This document shows, piece after piece, positions 1-23,568 of a stretch of 33,440 nt of DNA. Made by a program: the position numbers and the translations under genes. The notes below the pieces were generated by a model that made no database searches, was not told the origin of the DNA, and worked only from the letters and a program-made list of their open reading frames with translations. The DNA comes from Promethearchaeota archaeon. GTDB lineage: Archaea > Asgardarchaeota > Lokiarchaeia > Sigyniarchaeales > SOKP01. Every line of letters begins with the position of its first letter. The first letter of the stretch is position 1. The DNA lies in the NCBI GenBank assembly GCA_019894715.1, contig JAGXOA010000145.1, positions 1 through 33,440 of the forward strand, read 5' to 3'.

Positions 1-2667
1 GAAATTCAAACTATATTTGAAAATATAGGACAACTAGATGAAATTCTCGATGCGATTAAATGGGGAACAGATTATCTAATAAGATGTCATCCCACTCCAG
101 ACGAATTTTATTTTCAAATCGGAGATATTAGTACGTTAAACGAATGGAGAGGCCCTGTTGAGACAGCACATATGTTTTTTGATCGGCCATCATATAAAGT
201 GAATGAAACTCAAGGAGGTTCTGCAGTAACAGCAGCTACAGCAGCAGCTCTTGCAATTTCTTCAATAGTTTTCAATGAAACAGACCAAGATTATGCATCA
301 ACATTATTAACTCATGCTGAACAATTGGATAATCTAGCATGGAAAATGTTATCAGATGACTACTATAATGCTAATTCTCTAGAAGATTATCAGTCTTTTA
401 ATGGTTTTTATGATGAATTATCAACATCAGGAATTTTATTATACATGAAGACAGATAATATCACTTATTTAGAAAAAGCAGAAAATGCCACAAGAAATTG
501 GCCGAAAGATGGTTCTTATTTTGAATATAGAGAAACACATTCTTGGGATGATATGCATTATATGGCACAAATCTTCCTTTCAAGAGAAACTAGTAATCAA
601 ACTTATGTTGAATCAATAGAACGTAATTTAGACTATTGGTCTCGAGCTTTAGGGACAGATAATATTACATATACTCTTGGAGGGCTTGCTTATTGCAATC
701 CATCTTGGGCTGGAGAAGGTGCACTCAGATTTGCTGCAAATTCCGCATTTATTGCGTCAGTTTGGTCTGATGATTTAAATTGTACCCCCGTGAATGCTTC
801 TATTTACAGAAGTTTTGCAGAATCCCAGATTAATTATACACTTGGAGATAATCCATATAATAGAAGTTATTTATTAGGATTTGGAAATAGTTCTTGGCAA
901 AATATTAGTCATAGAACGGCTCATGGTTCTTGGACTGGAAGTGTGGATAATCCAACAGAAAATCGTCATATTCTTTATGGGGCACTTTTGAGTGGACCTA
1001 GAAGTGGTAATGATTTTTGGAATAATCAAAGATCAATCACAGAAGAAACAGGAGTTGCATGTGATTATAATGCCGGATATATCGGTGCTTTGGCAAAAAT
1101 GGTAGATTTATATGGAGGAACACCACATATAGATTTTCCAAATGCTTCATGGTTTAGACCAAAAAATATAACGGGTCTTGAATATTATGGGTACGCACTT
1201 ACTAACAACAATATAATATCTACAGATATCAGTGTAGACCTTACAAATCATGGAACTTGGCCAGCAAAAGTAGCAAATATGTTGTCTTATAGATATTATC
1301 TTAATTTAACAGAAGTTTTTGAAGCAGGTTATTCTATTGAAAATATTACAATTAATATTAATCCTGAAGGACCTATTTCAGTAACAGTTTCAAATTTAAT
1401 TCATATAGCTAATAATACATATTATGTTGTGGTTGATTATACAGGAGTTGAGATTTATCCTGGTCGCGATGATACTAATGCAAAAGAATCAACACTTACA
1501 TTTTCATTACCTTCTGGAGCCCTAGATTCGGCATGGGATCCAACAAATGACTGGTCTTTTCAAGGATTAAATAGTACAAGACACGCTTCTGAATATATCC
1601 CTATTTTTGATGATAATGTCTTAATTTATGGAAAATGCCCTGGTAATGATACAATTCCACCAATGGCAGCAACAGGTCTAAATGCTTCAGTTATAGACTC
1701 ATCAAGGATCGAATTGAATTGGGACGATAATATCGATTCAGATCTTTATGCATATTATATTTATAGAGGTAATTATTCAGGTTTTGAACCAAATAGCCTT
1801 AATAAAATCGGAGAATCAACAATAAATCAATATCTTAGTACTATGTTATATGATAATACTACATACTATTATATTGTAAAACCCGTTGATAAGAGTCTTA
1901 ATTTAGGAGCACCTTCAAATGAAGTTAATGCAACTACTCTGATTGATTTTTCAGCACCCGATTCACCTACAGGTTTATCCCCCCCAATAATTAATTCTAC
2001 TGAAGTTTTTCTTGATTGGAATGACAATCTAGAACCAGATGTAGCTAAATATTTTATATATAGAAGTATAATTGAAAGTTTTATAACAAACGAATTAACA
2101 TTTTTGGCAGAAACAACGATTAGCGAATATACAGACATAAATATTTCTGTTGGGACGACATATTATTATCTTATAATTGCAGTCGATATAAATGGAAATC
2201 CAAGCGCACCTTCATTTAAAATAAGTGCCACAGTACCATCTATAAACAAGATCCCACCAGGATTAATAACAGGCATTGCTTTATTCATAGCTATTATGAT
2301 GTCCTTATTAGGATCTATATATATTTTAACAAAGAAAAGTAGAAAGAGTACCGTTCTTGTTAAGGATTCTCATGAAAAAAGTCGAGATCATACTATTTTT
2401 GTGAAGAGTGAAGTAGATGTTTTAGATAATAGCAGACTTATACATATTTTTGAAGAAGAAGAACTATTACAAAGACTTGATCAATTTAAAAATATAACAA
2501 TAACAATACTTGAAGAAGATTTTCTTGAAAATATCGAAAAATTAGATTGGGATAATGAATTTGAGAGAAAAACTTTCATAAAAGAGATGCTTATATTAAC
2601 CCCAAATGAGAGGAAGAAAATCATTAAAGAAATGCTCAATGATTTCTATAACCAATCACCAAAATAA
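1..2667 (+). CDS. GH9 endoglucanase with CBM3, two FN3 domains and C-terminal membrane anchor (5' partial)
   Basis: Extracellular glycoside hydrolase family 9 (cellulase-type beta-1,4-glucanase), cut at its 5' end by the window: the frame is open from base 1, and codons before the ATG at 172 already encode GH9 sequence (WGTDYLIRCHP, then FQIGD). Counting from that ATG, GH9 continues to about residue 325, with LGDNPYNRS, the catalytic HRTAHGS and VACDYNAGYIGALA. A CBM3c-like module follows (about 335-490: WPAKVANMLSYRYY, YYVVVDYTG, IYPGRDD), then two FN3 domains (about 497-690), a membrane helix (about 697-720) and a cytoplasmic tail of about 110 residues. The order GH9-CBM3c is that of processive endoglucanases. 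About 25 N-x-S/T sequons lie in the outer part, which fits surface N-glycosylation. There is no dockerin. The usual general-acid Glu six residues before the Asn of DYNA appears to be Gly. Family assignment is firm; activity is uncertain. Confidence 0.9.
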   Translation, partial: EIQTIFENIGQLDEILDAIKWGTDYLIRCHPTPDEFYFQIGDISTLNEWRGPVETAHMFFDRPSYKVNETQGGSAVTAATAAALAISSIVFNETDQDYASTLLTHAEQLDNLAWKMLSDDYYNANSLEDYQSFNGFYDELSTSGILLYMKTDNITYLEKAENATRNWPKDGSYFEYRETHSWDDMHYMAQIFLSRETSNQTYVESIERNLDYWSRALGTDNITYTLGGLAYCNPSWAGEGALRFAANSAFIASVWSDDLNCTPVNASIYRSFAESQINYTLGDNPYNRSYLLGFGNSSWQNISHRTAHGSWTGSVDNPTENRHILYGALLSGPRSGNDFWNNQRSITEETGVACDYNAGYIGALAKMVDLYGGTPHIDFPNASWFRPKNITGLEYYGYALTNNNIISTDISVDLTNHGTWPAKVANMLSYRYYLNLTEVFEAGYSIENITININPEGPISVTVSNLIHIANNTYYVVVDYTGVEIYPGRDDTNAKESTLTFSLPSGALDSAWDPTNDWSFQGLNSTRHASEYIPIFDDNVLIYGKCPGNDTIPPMAATGLNASVIDSSRIELNWDDNIDSDLYAYYIYRGNYSGFEPNSLNKIGESTINQYLSTMLYDNTTYYYIVKPVDKSLNLGAPSNEVNATTLIDFSAPDSPTGLSPPIINSTEVFLDWNDNLEPDVAKYFIYRSIIESFITNELTFLAETTISEYTDINISVGTTYYYLIIAVDINGNPSAPSFKISATVPSINKIPPGLITGIALFIAIMMSLLGSIYILTKKSRKSTVLVKDSHEKSRDHTIFVKSEVDVLDNSRLIHIFEEEELLQRLDQFKNITITILEEDFLENIEKLDWDNEFERKTFIKEMLILTPNERKKIIKEMLNDFYNQSPK

Positions 2668-2740
2668 TTGAATAATTTATTCAAAAAGGAATAATATTTG
2701 AAGAATTAAAAAATCTAATATGTTAATCTACAGTTACTAA

Positions 2741-2753
2741 AAATCTGGACATT
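2741..2753 (+). repeat. IS607 left-end-like motif (relic)
   Basis: AAATCTGGACATT is identical to 33060-33072, which lies upstream of an IS607-type tnpA start. A close variant, AATCTGGACACT, lies upstream of the tnpA fragment at 23.5 kb (minus strand). No tnpA reading frame follows here, so this is probably a solo end left after deletion. That it is a transposon end is inferred from the shared context of the other two copies. Confidence 0.45.
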
Positions 2754-2791
2754 TACGAACATCCTCTTTTATGACTGGTAACTGACAGTCC

Positions 2792-2838
2792 TGAGCACCC
2801 ATATAGGGAGGCTCAATGTTGTGTTTCTTTTTTTTTTT
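2792..2838 (+). terminator. GC-rich hairpin followed by a T tract in the 2668-3015 gap
   Basis: TGAGC (2792-2796) pairs with GCTCA (2811-2815), and CCC (2798-2800) with GGG (2806-2808) around an ATATA loop. Shortly after comes an uninterrupted run of 11 T (2828-2838). It lies about 125 bases after the GH9 stop and could end that transcript or a small RNA from the relic just upstream. An adjacent imperfect repeat, GACTG (2773-2777) with CAGTC (2786-2790), adds to the local structure. The rest of the 2668-3015 gap shows only AT-rich sequence and a promoter. Confidence 0.45.
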
Positions 2839-2952
2839 AACATATTTCATAGTATGACAATAAAAATCTCATCCTTTTCGCTATCAAAAGAAAATTTATT
2901 ATCGCACGATGAAGAAAAATTTCACTATTATTCCAAAGCTCTTTATAAGCAA

Positions 2953-2963
2953 TTTATATATAT
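2953..2963 (+). promoter_or_regulatory. TATA box for the 59-residue ORF
   Basis: TTTATATATAT is a strong archaeal TATA element 53 bases before the ATG at 3016. Transcription would start near 2985 and give a short leader containing GAAAGGT (3001-3007), a weak ribosome-binding site. Confidence 0.45.
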
Positions 2964-3015
2964 TTGATATTAAGGACTAAGAATTTCTTATCTAATAATT
3001 GAAAGGTTATATTAA

Positions 3016-3195
3016 ATGGTAAATATCGCAAATAATTTTTTACATAATTTAAAATATCGAACAAAACAAAGAGGAGAACATGGAAGTTCAGTTCAGAAAA
3101 TTGAAGAATTTCCTAAATTGGTTAATTTAAAAAAAGATTATCAAAAAATTTATAGTAATATTTTAAAAGAATTTACAGAACTAGCGGAAAAATAA
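3016..3195 (+). CDS. Small protein of unknown function (59 aa)
   Basis: I do not recognise this protein. The frame encodes 59 residues: a basic N-terminal third (KYRTKQRGEHGSS) and a C-terminal half that is probably helical and rich in Lys, Glu and Leu (DYQKIYSNILKEFTELAEK). Evidence that it is real is the good TATA box at 2953-2963, an AGGT motif eight bases before the ATG, ordinary AT-rich codon use, and a stop codon that abuts exactly the stop of the convergent flavodoxin gene (3195 against 3196). No membrane segment or Cys pair is present. It could be a small nucleic-acid-binding or regulatory protein, but nothing in the sequence establishes this. Confidence 0.5.
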   Translation: MVNIANNFLHNLKYRTKQRGEHGSSVQKIEEFPKLVNLKKDYQKIYSNILKEFTELAEK

Positions 3196-3669
3196 TTAAT
3201 TTTCTAATTGATTAATAAAAACTGCTATCTTTTCATGATGAGATCCATCATTTATCATTTTTGTCGTTAGTTTTAAAGAATTAATAGGATTTTTTTCGCA
3301 AATATTGCTCATTAGATCAAAAACTTCAGTACCATCACCTTCTCCTCCTTGAGTGCAAAAGAAAGCTACTTTCTTTAATTTATTTTTATTTTCGACAAGA
3401 AAAGTTCTAATTGCAGGGGGTATTTTAGATCCCCAATTAGGAGTACCAATAAGTAATACGTCATAATTATCTGGATTCTTCACAAGAGGTTTAATTTCAG
3501 TTAATTCTCCTTTTCTAGCCGCCAATCCCCCTCTCATAAATCCTTTAAGTCCAGATCTTTTTTTTTTATCAATAATCTCTTCAAAATCACAATTGAGCTT
3601 TTCTGAGAGTATTTTCGCAATACTTTTTGTTCTTCCAGTTCTTGAATAAAATATAACTAACGTCTTCAT
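3196..3669 (-). CDS. Flavodoxin-family protein
   Basis: An FMN-binding electron carrier or small quinone/iron reductase of the flavodoxin fold, 157 residues, the usual length for a single-domain flavodoxin. The FMN phosphate loop is YSRTGRTKSIA (about residues 9-19), in the place of the canonical T/S-x-T-G-x-T. Two further isoalloxazine-contacting loops are visible: GTPNWGSKIPP (about 75-85) and FCTQGGEGDGT (about 104-114). It is cytosolic, with no signal peptide or membrane segment. The ATG has no clear Shine-Dalgarno sequence, consistent with a leaderless message. It converges with the small ORF 3016-3195, with stops touching. The fold is clear; the redox partner cannot be read from the context. 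Confidence 0.87.
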   Translation of the reverse strand: MKTLVIFYSRTGRTKSIAKILSEKLNCDFEEIIDKKKRSGLKGFMRGGLAARKGELTEIKPLVKNPDNYDVLLIGTPNWGSKIPPAIRTFLVENKNKLKKVAFFCTQGGEGDGTEVFDLMSNICEKNPINSLKLTTKMINDGSHHEKIAVFINQLEN

Positions 3670-3889
3670 ACAAGATAGAGAATATGTTTTAAAATATATT
3701 CTTTACCATATAAGATTATCAAATTTAGGTATGAATATATATTAATTAAAGAAAATTCAGAAGATAATTCAGATGATTTAGTAATCTGATAAAATCTAAA
3801 TTATTGGAAGCTTCTAAATTAGTTAATTTTATTAGAGGGTTATAGTATTATCCTTTAGACAAAGTTTTTGTAAATATGAATATTTTGAG

Positions 3890-4705
3890 GTGTATATTAA
3901 TATAACAGAATATTATGTGCCCCTAAGTGTAATTCTGGCAATTTTAGGTGTTATAGCTTCCCTACTAATGACTATTGTTTGCCAAAAACGAAAAGATTTA
4001 AGACTCATACTAATTGCTTATATTAATACAACAATTGGAGTGGTTATTAGTGCTGTTAATGATATTTTTACTCCAGATGGCATAGGACATGAAATTAGTC
4101 GAATATTCTTTATTTTAGGATCAATACTTCTATTTACTTCTATATTTAAAGAATATTTCCAAACATTTCATAAAGGAGATAGAATTTTATTTAGAGGTGT
4201 TTCAAAAATGATCGGAGGTGTTATTATCACTTCAAATTTGATTTTTACAATATCATTGGAAATTCTCATAATATCATTTTGTTTGGTAAGTGCCTTTATG
4301 TCATTTAGACTTGCTATAAAAAAAAAGGCATTTACAAATGCTTTTCTCGGTATAAGTTTATCAACTGTTTTTTCAGCATTACTTTTAACAATCATTGAAA
4401 GTCTTGGAGTAAATGAAATGAGATTATATGCATTGGGAATGGATATTATTTTCTTTAATATGCTCTTGGTAACTGCGATTATAACTTTATTAGAACAAAA
4501 ACTTAAGATTACAGAAACAGATAAAATCTATCTGAAGGATAAATATTCTCATGAGCTAGGAAATATTCTCCATACAATTTCATTATCATATGAATTAATT
4601 AAAATTGAAGATCAAGAAGATAATTTATATGAAGAATTAGATGAACTAATAAAAAAGAAAATAAGTGAAGCTTCTGATTTAGTAAAATTCATTCGATCTT
4701 TATGA
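3890..4705 (+). CDS. Multi-pass membrane protein ending in a histidine-kinase DHp-like helix, no ATPase domain
   Basis: An integral membrane protein of 271 residues. About six or seven hydrophobic segments fill residues 8-200. A short cytoplasmic C-terminus follows, containing KYSHELGNILHTISLSYEL, a good match to the histidine-kinase H-box, with the phospho-acceptor candidate His221. The protein stops about 50 residues later, after a second predicted helix, so the dimerisation/phospho-acceptor helices are present but the HATPase_c domain (N, G1, G2 boxes) is missing. I looked through 4706-4950 and saw no continuation in another frame. It may be phosphorylated in trans by a partner kinase, or be a signalling scaffold. 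The GTG start at 3890 sits inside GAGGTG, which resembles a ribosome-binding site, so initiation may lie slightly downstream at ATT 3896 or ATA 3902. Confidence 0.7.
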   Translation: MYINITEYYVPLSVILAILGVIASLLMTIVCQKRKDLRLILIAYINTTIGVVISAVNDIFTPDGIGHEISRIFFILGSILLFTSIFKEYFQTFHKGDRILFRGVSKMIGGVIITSNLIFTISLEILIISFCLVSAFMSFRLAIKKKAFTNAFLGISLSTVFSALLLTIIESLGVNEMRLYALGMDIIFFNMLLVTAIITLLEQKLKITETDKIYLKDKYSHELGNILHTISLSYELIKIEDQEDNLYEELDELIKKKISEASDLVKFIRSL

Positions 4706-4950
4706 GTCCATCTTATAAGAGAATTTAATTATTATTAATTAGCAATTTAAGAATTAATCCAAGATTTATCATATAAACTGACTGACTTTTTATTCTTTTG
4801 AAATAATTTTCAGTAGATTTTTATCTATAATATTTGGAATATTCTCTTTTAACATGTCTTCGTGAATAACATTACAGATATAGATTAATTTTGATCTTGA
4901 GAAAATTTAGAGACTACATCAGAAGTTATCGGTTATGCTTTTGAATTATC

Positions 4951-5175
4951 TTAATTTATATCTGTTTTGTTTGTAATAATTGCGTTAAAAACAACTTGAG
5001 TACCTCGAACTTTGAAATTACCATCTATATGGATAAGAATTGTTTTTTCACAATGTTCAATAACAAAAGGATTCAGATGTTTCTTAGAATTCAAAACTAA
5101 ATCTTTTTCTATCTCAATAGACATTGTTTTATTACATAGAGGACAGTTAGAAAATATTTTTTTTATTTCAACCAT
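4951..5175 (-). CDS. Small zinc-ribbon-like protein
   Basis: A 74-residue protein with one clear metal-binding knuckle, CPLCNK, near residue 11, followed by a beta-rich segment containing HLNPFVIEHCEKTILIHID and ending KVRGTQVV. I know of similar short Cys-x2-Cys proteins in Asgard genomes but cannot name a function; the second half of a zinc site would have to come from the His/Cys of the IEHCEK segment or from a partner. The ATG at 5175 (MVEIKK) is preferred over an in-frame TTG at 5187. A plus-strand frame overlaps it almost entirely, but the Cys-x2-Cys knuckle and the charged composition favour this strand. It is divergent from the GTPase-LRR-TIR gene. Confidence 0.6.
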   Translation of the reverse strand: MVEIKKIFSNCPLCNKTMSIEIEKDLVLNSKKHLNPFVIEHCEKTILIHIDGNFKVRGTQVVFNAIITNKTDIN

Positions 5176-5300
5176 TTTTAGTTTCAAGAAAATATTTAGG
5201 AATTTACTGTATAATATATATGAAATCTTTATAATTTAATATTAGAGTATTATGGTAATTATTTTAATTAGTAGCAATTATTATTATAAAGTTAATCATA

Positions 5301-5315
5301 AAGGTGTTTTAAATA
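5301..5315 (+). promoter_or_regulatory. Ribosome-binding site AAGGTG and probable ATA start of the GTPase-LRR-TIR gene
   Basis: AAGGTG (5301-5306) is followed after six bases by an in-frame ATA at 5313. The 25 codons from there to the TTG at 5388 are open and encode the first beta strand and P-loop region of a small GTPase (RYKIVLFENWDVGRSL). No ATG, GTG or TTG occurs in this stretch. The site therefore argues for a rare ATA start. Confidence 0.4.
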
Positions 5316-5387
5316 TCTAATAAACAGAATAATATCTTAGAAAGATACAAAATCGTTCTTTTTGAAAATTGGGATGTTGGAAGATCA

Positions 5388-6905
5388 TTGATGCATTGGT
5401 ATATTGAAAAGACAAAAAGAATAGATAGAAAAATGACAATAGGAGTAGAATTTGTGAGAAAAGATATTAAATTAAACGAAAATCAAAATATTGGTGTTGA
5501 TTTTTGGCGATTAGGAGGTCAAGCAAGATTTGGAGCAATTAGAAGTAATTTTTATAAAGGAGCTTCTGGTTCAATTATATTCTATAATCTAAAAGATTCA
5601 GAACAAGGATTTAAGTATTTTACGGATCGATATAATGAAATTCAAGAATTTGTAGGTAATGTTCCAGTTTTAGTTATTGCTGTAGATCTAGAGGAGGATC
5701 ATGGGAAAGCCCCGACAGAGTTTGATGAAAAAATAAAGAAGATAATAGAAAAGGATGGAAATTTATATATCCAATGTAGAAACGAAATAATTGAAGATAT
5801 CGAAGAAGGAATAAAAAAATTATCTCAAATGATAGTTAAAAGAGAAGAAAAGAGAAAATCTGAAGAACTCAGTCCTTCAGAAAAAGTGGTTATTGAGAAA
5901 TTAGAAGAAATAATTGGAAAAAAGATTCCAAAATTACAAGTTAATGTGGAAGATATTTTTGGGTATAAGATAGAAAATAGTCATTCTATAGAACTATATC
6001 TGCGAAATTTTGGAATAAAAGAACTTCCTAAAAATATTGGGGATTTAAAATACTTAAAAATAATAGATTTAGAATCAAATCAATTAAATTCAATTCCTCC
6101 TTCTATAAAAAAATTAAAATCTCTTGCTCTCATCAACTTATCAAATAATCAATTTACGTCTATCCCAATAGAGTTATGGTCATTGATAAATTTAAAATTA
6201 ATAGACTTGAAGAAAAATCCTTGGCAAGGGGAATCAAAAGAATTTTATGATAAATCTCCAGAGATTATAAGAGATTTTTGTAGGAAAAGAGCTAACATTC
6301 ATATTTTTTTAAGTCATGCGGTAAATGACTTCAGGGAATATAGAATTAAAGAACTTTCAACTTATCTAAATAATCAGGAAGAAATATACAAATCTTATTA
6401 TTGCGAAGAGGATCTTAAAGGAAATATAGATGAATTCATGAACCAAACCATACCTCAATGCCATCTTTTATTATTTATTGCAACGAGAAATTCTGTTTTT
6501 AATTCTGTAGATTGCAAATATGAACTTATGCTGGCTAAAAAACACAAACTGCAAATAATTCCTATAAGGGGAAAAGATATTGCATGGAGTGAATTAATTA
6601 ATATTGGACTAAGCCGAGAATTAGGTCTGGAATTCAATGATACCAATTTTAATATTTTTTGTGAAGATATTTATCAATACATACTTGAATTTAAGAGAAA
6701 AATTGATTTAATCAATAGAGAAAAAGGAAGGATCGATAAGATTAATATTAATATTATGAATATTCTTGAAGGATATTTAAAATCAGAATTATCTAATATG
6801 ATGATAAAGAAAAATACAAATAAAGTAGAAGACATAATAGAAAAATATAGGAGTGAAAAAATCTCATTTAAAAAATTTTTGAGAAAATTAAAAGATATAA
6901 TCTGA
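5388..6905 (+). CDS. Pseudo-GTPase, leucine-rich-repeat and TIR fusion protein
   Basis: A cytosolic three-part signalling protein. Residues 1-150 are a Ras/Rab-like domain: WRLGGQARFGAIRSNFYKGASG matches switch II onward. Homology continues upstream of this start (see 5301-5315), giving a P-loop NWDVGRS with Arg for the catalytic Lys; NKxD reads IAVD, so GTP binding is probably lost. Residues about 155-200 link to three or four LRRs (about 200-285, e.g. LKIIDLESNQLNSIP). A TIR domain follows (about 300-440: HIFLSHA; SVDCKYELMLA, where Glu379 matches the NADase catalytic Glu of SARM1-type TIRs), then a helical C-terminus. Switch-LRR-TIR order recalls Roco proteins and NLR immune receptors. A role in defence or cell-death signalling is inference. 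The start given is the first conventional codon; the true one is probably near 5313. A transposon relic lies directly downstream. Confidence 0.85.
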   Translation: MMHWYIEKTKRIDRKMTIGVEFVRKDIKLNENQNIGVDFWRLGGQARFGAIRSNFYKGASGSIIFYNLKDSEQGFKYFTDRYNEIQEFVGNVPVLVIAVDLEEDHGKAPTEFDEKIKKIIEKDGNLYIQCRNEIIEDIEEGIKKLSQMIVKREEKRKSEELSPSEKVVIEKLEEIIGKKIPKLQVNVEDIFGYKIENSHSIELYLRNFGIKELPKNIGDLKYLKIIDLESNQLNSIPPSIKKLKSLALINLSNNQFTSIPIELWSLINLKLIDLKKNPWQGESKEFYDKSPEIIRDFCRKRANIHIFLSHAVNDFREYRIKELSTYLNNQEEIYKSYYCEEDLKGNIDEFMNQTIPQCHLLLFIATRNSVFNSVDCKYELMLAKKHKLQIIPIRGKDIAWSELINIGLSRELGLEFNDTNFNIFCEDIYQYILEFKRKIDLINREKGRIDKININIMNILEGYLKSELSNMMIKKNTNKVEDIIEKYRSEKISFKKFLRKLKDII

Positions 6906-6914
6906 AAAAAATCA

Positions 6915-7056
6915 GTGAACTACACACGGCCTAAAGGCCGTGGCTTCCTACGAGTGCACAATCACTTCTAGTACGGATTGGTCTGTATATCGTATAAAAC
7001 CATCTCAATGCTTTTGGAATGATTCCTCGTTCACAGAGGATTGATGCGATAGGAAA
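6915..7056 (-). mobile_element. Solo IS607/TnpB right end with tnpB C-terminal remnant and omega-RNA-like hairpin
   Basis: Bases 6915-7003 match 23090-23178 without gaps (12 differences in 89, about 87% identity). Both carry the hairpin CACGGCC-TAAA-GGCCGTG (6925-6942 here) followed by GCTTCCTACGAG. On the minus strand an open frame runs 7056-6931 and ends LVGSHGL before a TAG; the 23 kb copy encodes WFSTINRPTRSRSGCVLVGSYGL, with the frame kept. This is what the 3' end of tnpB overlapping its omega RNA and the right transposon end would look like. No tnpA or rest of tnpB is present. The end (GTGAACTAC, 6915) lies 10 bases after the stop of the GTPase-LRR-TIR gene. Bases 7057-7153 hold no gene that I can see. 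Confidence 0.65.
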
Positions 7057-7153
7057 TCAAAGATATCCTTTATATCAAGGAAATATACATATAAAAGAAT
7101 TTTAGTTTAGAAAAAGAAATATTTAATAATAATTCAATCCTCCTTTCCTAAGA

Positions 7154-23089: not shown

Positions 23090-23568
23090 GTGAACTACCC
23101 ACGGCCTAAAGACCGTAGCTTCCTACGAGTACACAACCGCTTCTACTACGGGTTGGCCTGTTTATTGTAGAAAACCATTCCATCATATTAGACCGATTTT
23201 TTTTGCATGCTCTTTGAGTTGTTCCACTTGCCGTTCCAAGTCACCTCGCTTGGATTGTTTGTGTGAGGAAACTCTCCCATAAATGGCGCAGGTGCTTTTA
23301 AAACTTGAATGAGGATGAGATATTTCTTGTTTATAGGAACTCTTAAGTATTAATCGCTTGATTTCTTGAACAGGAAATCGTCGATGACCTCCCAGAGTTC
23401 TTACGCAAGTAATTTTTCGCTTTTTTTCCCATCGACGTAGAGTCTTGATGCACACTCCAAGCATGAGGGCTGTAATTCCAATGGTATACATAAAGAAAAA
23501 GATTTAATAAGAAGATTTAAAGTTTTGAATTATCTGAGTCGTATATCCATTTAAATAGTGTCCAGATT
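23090..23568 (-). mobile_element. Internally deleted IS607-family element
   Basis: On the minus strand, AATCTGGACACT (23557-23568), shared with 2741 and 33060, marks the left end. It is followed by a truncated tnpA (23491-23183) that runs straight into the last codons of tnpB (WFST to the TAG at 23106) and the right-end hairpin (23100-23117, TACGGTC-TTTA-GGCCGTG as RNA). The middle of the element, about 2 kb of recombinase and TnpB coding sequence, is gone. Bases 23090-23178 are about 87% identical to the solo end at 6915-7003. The end lies 27 bases after the SRP54 stop. Confidence 0.7.
23183..23491 (-). pseudogene. IS607 TnpA serine recombinase, truncated (102 aa)
   Basis: MYTIGITALMLGVCIKTLRRW starts a MerR-like helix-turn-helix (about 1-45, including RTLGGHRRF), followed by the start of a resolvase domain (CAIYGRVSSHKQ, with the catalytic Ser in RVSS; LERQVEQL). 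IS607 TnpA is normally about 200 residues, but this frame ends after 102, at the deletion junction with the tnpB remnant. The catalytic arginines and the E-helix are missing, so it is inactive as a recombinase. Confidence 0.85.

Follow-up and report, generated by a model that had tools for sequence, protein, structure and literature searches.

A single uninterrupted reading frame in a Lokiarchaeia genome joins a Rab-like GTPase, in frame, to the front of a complete Lokiarchaeia LRR-TIR protein. The frame lies on the forward strand of the window, the 33,440-nucleotide stretch analyzed here (contig C145), which comes from a 3.36-Mb genome bin of Lokiarchaeia type comprising 288 contigs. It extends from TAA 5310 to TGA 6903 and comprises 530 codons plus the stop codon (5313..6905), with ATA 5313 as the first codon past the upstream stop. 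The encoded chain combines a Rab-fold domain with a TIR domain and, between them, approximately four LRRs. The initial annotation had described a Ras-like domain, LRRs and a TIR domain in one chain of Asgard origin; the Pfam scan and the open frame confirm this composition, and the source is indeed Asgard, belonging to the Lokiarchaeia. In our estimate the chances are about even that the gene specifies a translated protein in which a sensor composed of the pseudo-Rab and the LRR is combined with a TIR NADase; such a protein would probably sense stress or viruses and respond by destroying NAD+.

For the analysis, the GTPase half and the LRR-TIR half were aligned and modeled as two separate pieces. 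Residues 11-180 (5343..5852) form a Rab-like pseudo-GTPase domain, as revealed by Pfam, an AlphaFold2 model and PDB fold matches. When the whole chain was scanned, Pfam Ras scored 50.7 bits (cut-off 21.6) and Roc 46.4 bits. The AlphaFold2 model displays the full Rab fold from strand 1 to helix 5 (pLDDT 77, pTM 0.78), and the nearest solved structures are those of Rab1b, Rab27a and Rab11a. Alignment of the GTPase site with intact Lokiarchaeal Rabs and with a set of 57 Rab-like proteins drawn from this genome and related ones revealed damage to all motifs except one. The P-loop reads ENWDVGRS (5364..5387) and departs from the G1 pattern GxxxxGK[ST] by the replacement of Gly by Glu and of Lys by Arg, with one residue deleted after the Arg. 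In switch II, WRLGGQ (5505..5522), the Asp of DxxG is replaced by Arg to give RLGG, with the Gly and the Gln retained. NKxD has been shortened to IAVD (5676..5687) by deletion of the NK, its Asp being retained, and QCRNE (5772..5786) takes the place of E-T-S-A-K, with the loss of the G5 motif (SAK to RNE). Altogether, 9 of the 14 nucleotide-site residues are lost and 45 of the 50 hydrophobic core columns are retained. The features of the site that survive are the switch I Thr, the Gly-Gln of switch II and the last Asp of NKxD, together with the aromatic residues F47, W65, F80 and Y81 of the switch and interswitch regions.

The motifs FENWDVGRS, with its Lys-to-Arg change, WRLGGQ, IAVD and DCKYEL had been quoted correctly in the initial annotation. 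Its statement that NKxD is lost also stands, but the supposed substitution by Ala-Val does not, as the alignment (LVIA--VDL versus LLFANKVDL) reveals a two-residue in-frame deletion. The rest of the chain contains no canonical P-loop or NKxD. The claim of a nucleotide-dead GTPase thus agrees with the lost motifs, and the Rab fold is intact in the model. Judged from the missing site residues, the Rab part probably no longer binds GTP. Degeneration of this kind was also seen in a stand-alone Rab-like protein (L130:44-589), in which 10 of the 14 nucleotide-site residues are lost according to the alignment.

The remainder of the chain, residues ~181-530, is a complete LRR-TIR protein. It begins with a junction and N-terminal cap (5853..5975) that resembles the starts of the stand-alone LRR-TIR proteins L067 and L099 and includes a loop of low pLDDT. 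The LRR domain of approximately four repeats follows (5976..6248; Pfam LRR_8, 37 bits, and LRR_14), with model strands at residues 226-229, 248-252, 273-275 and 296-298. The TIR domain (6297..6692) contains all invariant columns of the family and is followed by the helical tail typical of LRR-TIR proteins (6693..6902), which was recognized in the model and can be aligned in the relatives. TIR_2 was matched with 27.7 bits by the whole chain and 30.1 bits by the excised domain (cut-off 28), and by 20 of 20 relatives. In the LRR-TIR model (pLDDT 87), the top Foldseek matches were LRRK1 and LRRK2; the LRR fold matched these and Leptospira LRR proteins, and the TIR fold matched SPARTA (8oz6, 8qlp, 8i88) and SARM1 (7ld0). 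A search of the PDB sequences with the TIR profile yielded no match. The Glu that the initial annotation numbered 379 in a 505-residue protein, and reported as retained, is Glu404 of the 530-codon frame (codon GAA, 6522..6524; DCKYEL). The same position is occupied by Glu in 55 of 55 aligned TIR domains of the family, in a C-x-x-E-L context, so that the putative catalytic residue expected of an NAD-consuming TIR domain is present. Sequence, fold and the neighbors of the relatives together suggest that the TIR domain has NADase activity.

The 5' end of the gene is unusual. The earliest in-frame ATG, GTG or TTG is TTG 5388 at residue 26, followed by ATG 5391 (5388..5393), both within helix 1 and past the P-loop, such that strand 1 and the P-loop precede them. 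Present expression of the pseudo-GTPase therefore depends on an unusual start at ATA 5313, on a sequencing error at this site, or on the start having been lost only recently. An AAAGGTG upstream of the ATA was discarded as Shine-Dalgarno support, since motifs of this type occur in 2 of 19 window genes against a background of 18%. Exchange of one base at 5315 creates an ATG and an ordinary Rab N-terminus, and the sequence derives from a metagenome bin of 288 contigs. The true gene could accordingly begin with ATG at 5313, the ATA being an assembly or base error and some of the motif losses perhaps errors as well. This is very improbable, because an error would account for the start codon only, whereas at least four separate motifs are changed in frame, which an error model would not favor.

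Loss of the start by mutation of ATG to ATA deserves more weight. In this main alternative, the fusion might be decaying: the Rab portion would be degenerating after a recent loss of the start, and translation from an internal codon, for instance ATG 5829, would yield the LRR-TIR half at most. The absence of a standard start ahead of residue 26 is in line with this scenario, as is the position of ATG 5829, approximately 15 residues ahead of the LRR-TIR cap and near the point at which the stand-alone relatives begin. Moreover, the terminal branch of the GTPase is the longest among the Rabs compared (1.75, median 0.14). Arguing against decay is the frame itself, which is open despite the loss of 9 of the 14 site residues and of several codons, all in frame. 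Intact Rab genes simulated to evolve neutrally to the point at which nine site residues were gone had acquired a mean of ~7.8 stops, and the frame was still open in 0 of 500 simulations. It follows that the GTPase region was translated through most of the motif loss. Based on these simulations, it was concluded that selection held the frame open and that the pseudo-GTPase belonged to the translated chain. Three-base periodicity is also intact in the GTPase half (GC1/2/3 = 0.42/0.26/0.17) and absent from the upstream non-coding DNA, and the Rab core is mostly retained. For selection on the fold itself the evidence is borderline. In comparison with simulations from which stops were excluded, the observed core retention was matched by 4-5% of the runs, the similarity of conserved residues by 10%, both together by 3% and strict identity by 14%; thus, fold conservation differs from neutral decay with P values of 0.04-0.14 (joint 0.03). 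Selection on the fused state is not measurable between species because the genomes searched contain no orthologue of the fusion. In view of the open frame, we consider decay rather unlikely.

The location of the gene is relevant to the same question. Synteny with G102, a genome of the same genus, extends from position 1 to 5246 and ends just ahead of the gene; the pfkB gene of G102 is on another contig. Approximately 9 bases past the stop codon, a non-coding repeat begins (6914-7088 in the window, GTGAACTACACACGGCCTAAAGGCCGTGGCTTCCTAC...). It is ~175-230 bp long and is represented by no fewer than 40 copies across the genome (e.g., L243-L253), with 90-98% identity and many of the copies at contig ends. 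It folds well as RNA (z -3.8), has no match in Rfam, and resembles the right end of IS605/IS607-type elements. That the fusion is a singleton, positioned at a break in synteny and beside a high-copy repeat, would be compatible with its decay. A diverged second copy of the repeat is found at 23102-23124, near a truncated IS607-like gene (23183-23491, minus strand) with a MerR-type HTH and the apparent start of a resolvase. In the window the gene has ordinary neighbors, encoding a glycosyl hydrolase, pfkB and FGGY kinases, a flavodoxin and a membrane protein weakly similar to HisKA; none of the flavodoxin, membrane-protein and pfkB genes is a defense gene.

The LRR-TIR part belongs to a multi-copy family that, in the data searched, is almost exclusively Lokiarchaeal; membership of the window protein is indicated by the LRR followed by a TIR domain with the invariant residues of the family. 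The same genome contains two stand-alone relatives, an LRR-TIR protein of 551 residues on contig C34 and a protein of 897 residues on contig C266. Matches to the TIR family with E <= 1e-5 were obtained in 50 of the 228 genomes of the phylum, and of the 48 loci recovered when 84,980 species genomes were scanned with a profile, 47 came from Lokiarchaeota and one was labeled Anoxychlamydiales. The latter (L178, bin K940_chlam_5) carries a Lokiarchaeal-type TIR on a 5.4-kb contig and reflects either transfer or misbinning. Among the ~70 family ORFs examined in full, only that of the window contains a GTPase domain. Neither the TIR nor the GTPase query recovered an orthologue of the fusion from the 228 phylum genomes, the GTDB-220 contigs or viral contigs; the search for the same domain order across Asgard genomes proposed in the initial annotation thus ended with 0 of 228 and a singleton. 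In 18 further loci, the Lokiarchaeal TIR ORFs, those read being of the WD40, membrane/secreted and other types, were not fused to a GTPase. A recurrent GTPase partner adjacent to LRR-TIR genes was likewise not seen, Rabs being present on a few flanks. A dead GTPase acting as a functional platform, as had been suggested, is not borne out by a singleton gene without a canonical start and with the longest GTPase branch.

The neighborhoods of the relatives point to NAD metabolism. LRR-TIR genes occur together with a gene for a WD40-membrane protein in six loci (L034, L078, L100, L101, L103, L104), and in all of these but L104, where no nicotinamidase-like cysteine hydrolase was seen in the stretch, a nicotinamidase-like gene is also present; L034 is from the genome of the window, and L103 has an extra isochorismatase-domain gene. 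Assignment as nicotinamidase-like is based on a sub-threshold Pfam isochorismatase match and on the motifs RDWH and HCMKGTYGAKF recognized by eye; a search of the PDB sequences gave no match. The three-gene cluster is a candidate NAD-linked defense cassette. A NUDIX gene (576-579 residues) directly adjoins a TIR-family gene in L102, L113, L121 and L122 and is nearby in a fifth locus. The adjacent TIR protein is of the propeller-membrane-TIR type in L102 and L121, whereas in L113 and L122 only the TIR end or a different N-terminus is found. Just the end of the NUDIX protein is visible in L121, and the copy in L113 also matches the PADLOC candidate PDC-S07. In four genomes (L080, L084, L087, L088), LRR-TIR genes are adjoined by an HSDR_N-N6_Mtase gene, which resembles single-chain restriction-modification systems. 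Nicotinamidase-like, NUDIX and HSDR_N-N6_Mtase genes were absent from control loci of the same clade, which at 228 kb cover less sequence than the TIR loci (570 kb); the counts are not independent, as they include paralogues and loci partly related by descent. Inspection by eye further suggests NadA (L113), NadE (L105) and an ADP-ribosylglycohydrolase (L109). Cleavage of NAD+ yields nicotinamide and ADP-ribose, products that fit the chemistry of nicotinamidases and NUDIX enzymes. The neighborhoods of the relatives are consistent with an NAD-consuming, defense-type effector. The earlier proposal of a TIR effector, perhaps in defense, is supported by the NAD metabolism and restriction genes beside the relatives but not by the non-defense neighbors in the window itself.

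Many TIR domains of other organisms serve as adaptors only, and the members of the present family are joined to many partners, including WD40, transmembrane and TPR parts. The TIR domain might thus be a non-enzymatic adaptor and the chain a scaffold in Lokiarchaeal signaling rather than an NAD-consuming effector. We judge this improbable in light of the catalytic-position Glu in every aligned family member, the enzymatic TIR domains among the fold matches, and the genes acting on NAD products beside the relatives. In the more plausible model of an NAD-consuming effector, the LRR and the pseudo-Rab would form the sensing part and bind a partner, whose engagement would bring TIR domains together. 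The clustered TIR domains would then consume NAD+ via Glu404, as do those of SARM1 and SPARTA, and the loss of NAD+ would stop cell metabolism under infection or stress. Because the core and the four switch and interswitch aromatics are retained, the pseudo-Rab may serve as a docking module that needs no nucleotide, or may have done so until recently. The NADase activity, the trigger, the oligomerization, the defense role and the docking role we infer from these data. That a Rab-like protein unable to bind GTP, with its fold and effector-facing residues kept, was recruited to provide a TIR immune-type effector with its recognition module is conceivable, albeit with clearly less than even probability. 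If the protein is translated and active, it joins the expanded Asgard Rab-like GTPases to TIR-based cell suicide and defense, which are usually discussed apart, and trafficking-type GTPase scaffolding and TIR immunity would be united in one Asgard archaeon. Perhaps weightier is the wider result, a multi-copy LRR-TIR family of the Lokiarchaeia in which the Glu at the catalytic position never varies and nicotinamidase-like, NUDIX and restriction-modification genes recur as neighbors. Its members are directly testable as candidate receptors that consume NAD, and they lie on the archaeal side of the origin of eukaryotes.

The closest known proteins are the uncharacterized Lokiarchaeia LRR-TIR proteins (L067, L066, L033, L034), to which residues ~181-530 align with 33-50% identity. 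They have the same LRR, TIR, helical tail and invariant TIR residues but not the GTPase in front. With Asgard Rab-like GTPases, such as a Thorarchaeota Rab (PDB 7ezb), the window domain shares the fold, and its identity to stand-alone Lokiarchaeal Rabs is ~30%; it differs in its destroyed nucleotide site, its fusion to LRR-TIR and its very long branch. SARM1, the TIR-APAZ of SPARTA and ThsB of Thoeris have in common with the window protein the TIR fold and the Glu in C-x-x-E-L, whereas the window gene has neither APAZ/Ago nor a ThsA neighbor. Assignment to Thoeris was rejected, as the PADLOC ThsB models match weakly (E 0.006) and ThsA is not among the adjacent genes. Roco proteins (LRRK1/2, Chlorobium tepidum Roco) likewise combine a Ras-like domain with LRRs, but in the window protein the GTPase precedes the LRR and its GTP site is dead. 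COR was absent from the Pfam scan, the LRR directly following the GTPase, which excludes membership in Roco. A different GTPase-LRR fusion is encoded in the same genome (L035:1117-3957, minus strand), a 946-residue protein with a normal P-loop, LRRs and membrane helices. TIR-NB-LRR/NLR proteins are analogous in their mode of action, in that sensor repeats, a switch-like module and a TIR effector are combined, although in another order. NACHT and NB-ARC were not detected by Pfam, and NLR/STAND membership was dismissed; the term NLR-like used in the initial annotation is apt for the function but not for the domains, the protein being neither an NLR nor a Roco. The papers on Asgard defense and GTPases that were covered (PMC11291487, PMC12988326, PMC10933270, PMC11249213) do not describe the pseudo-Rab/LRR-TIR architecture, and the main text of the Asgard defense survey among them (PMC11291487) does not mention the LRR-TIR family. 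The gene probably encodes a TIR effector whose sensor part is unusual.
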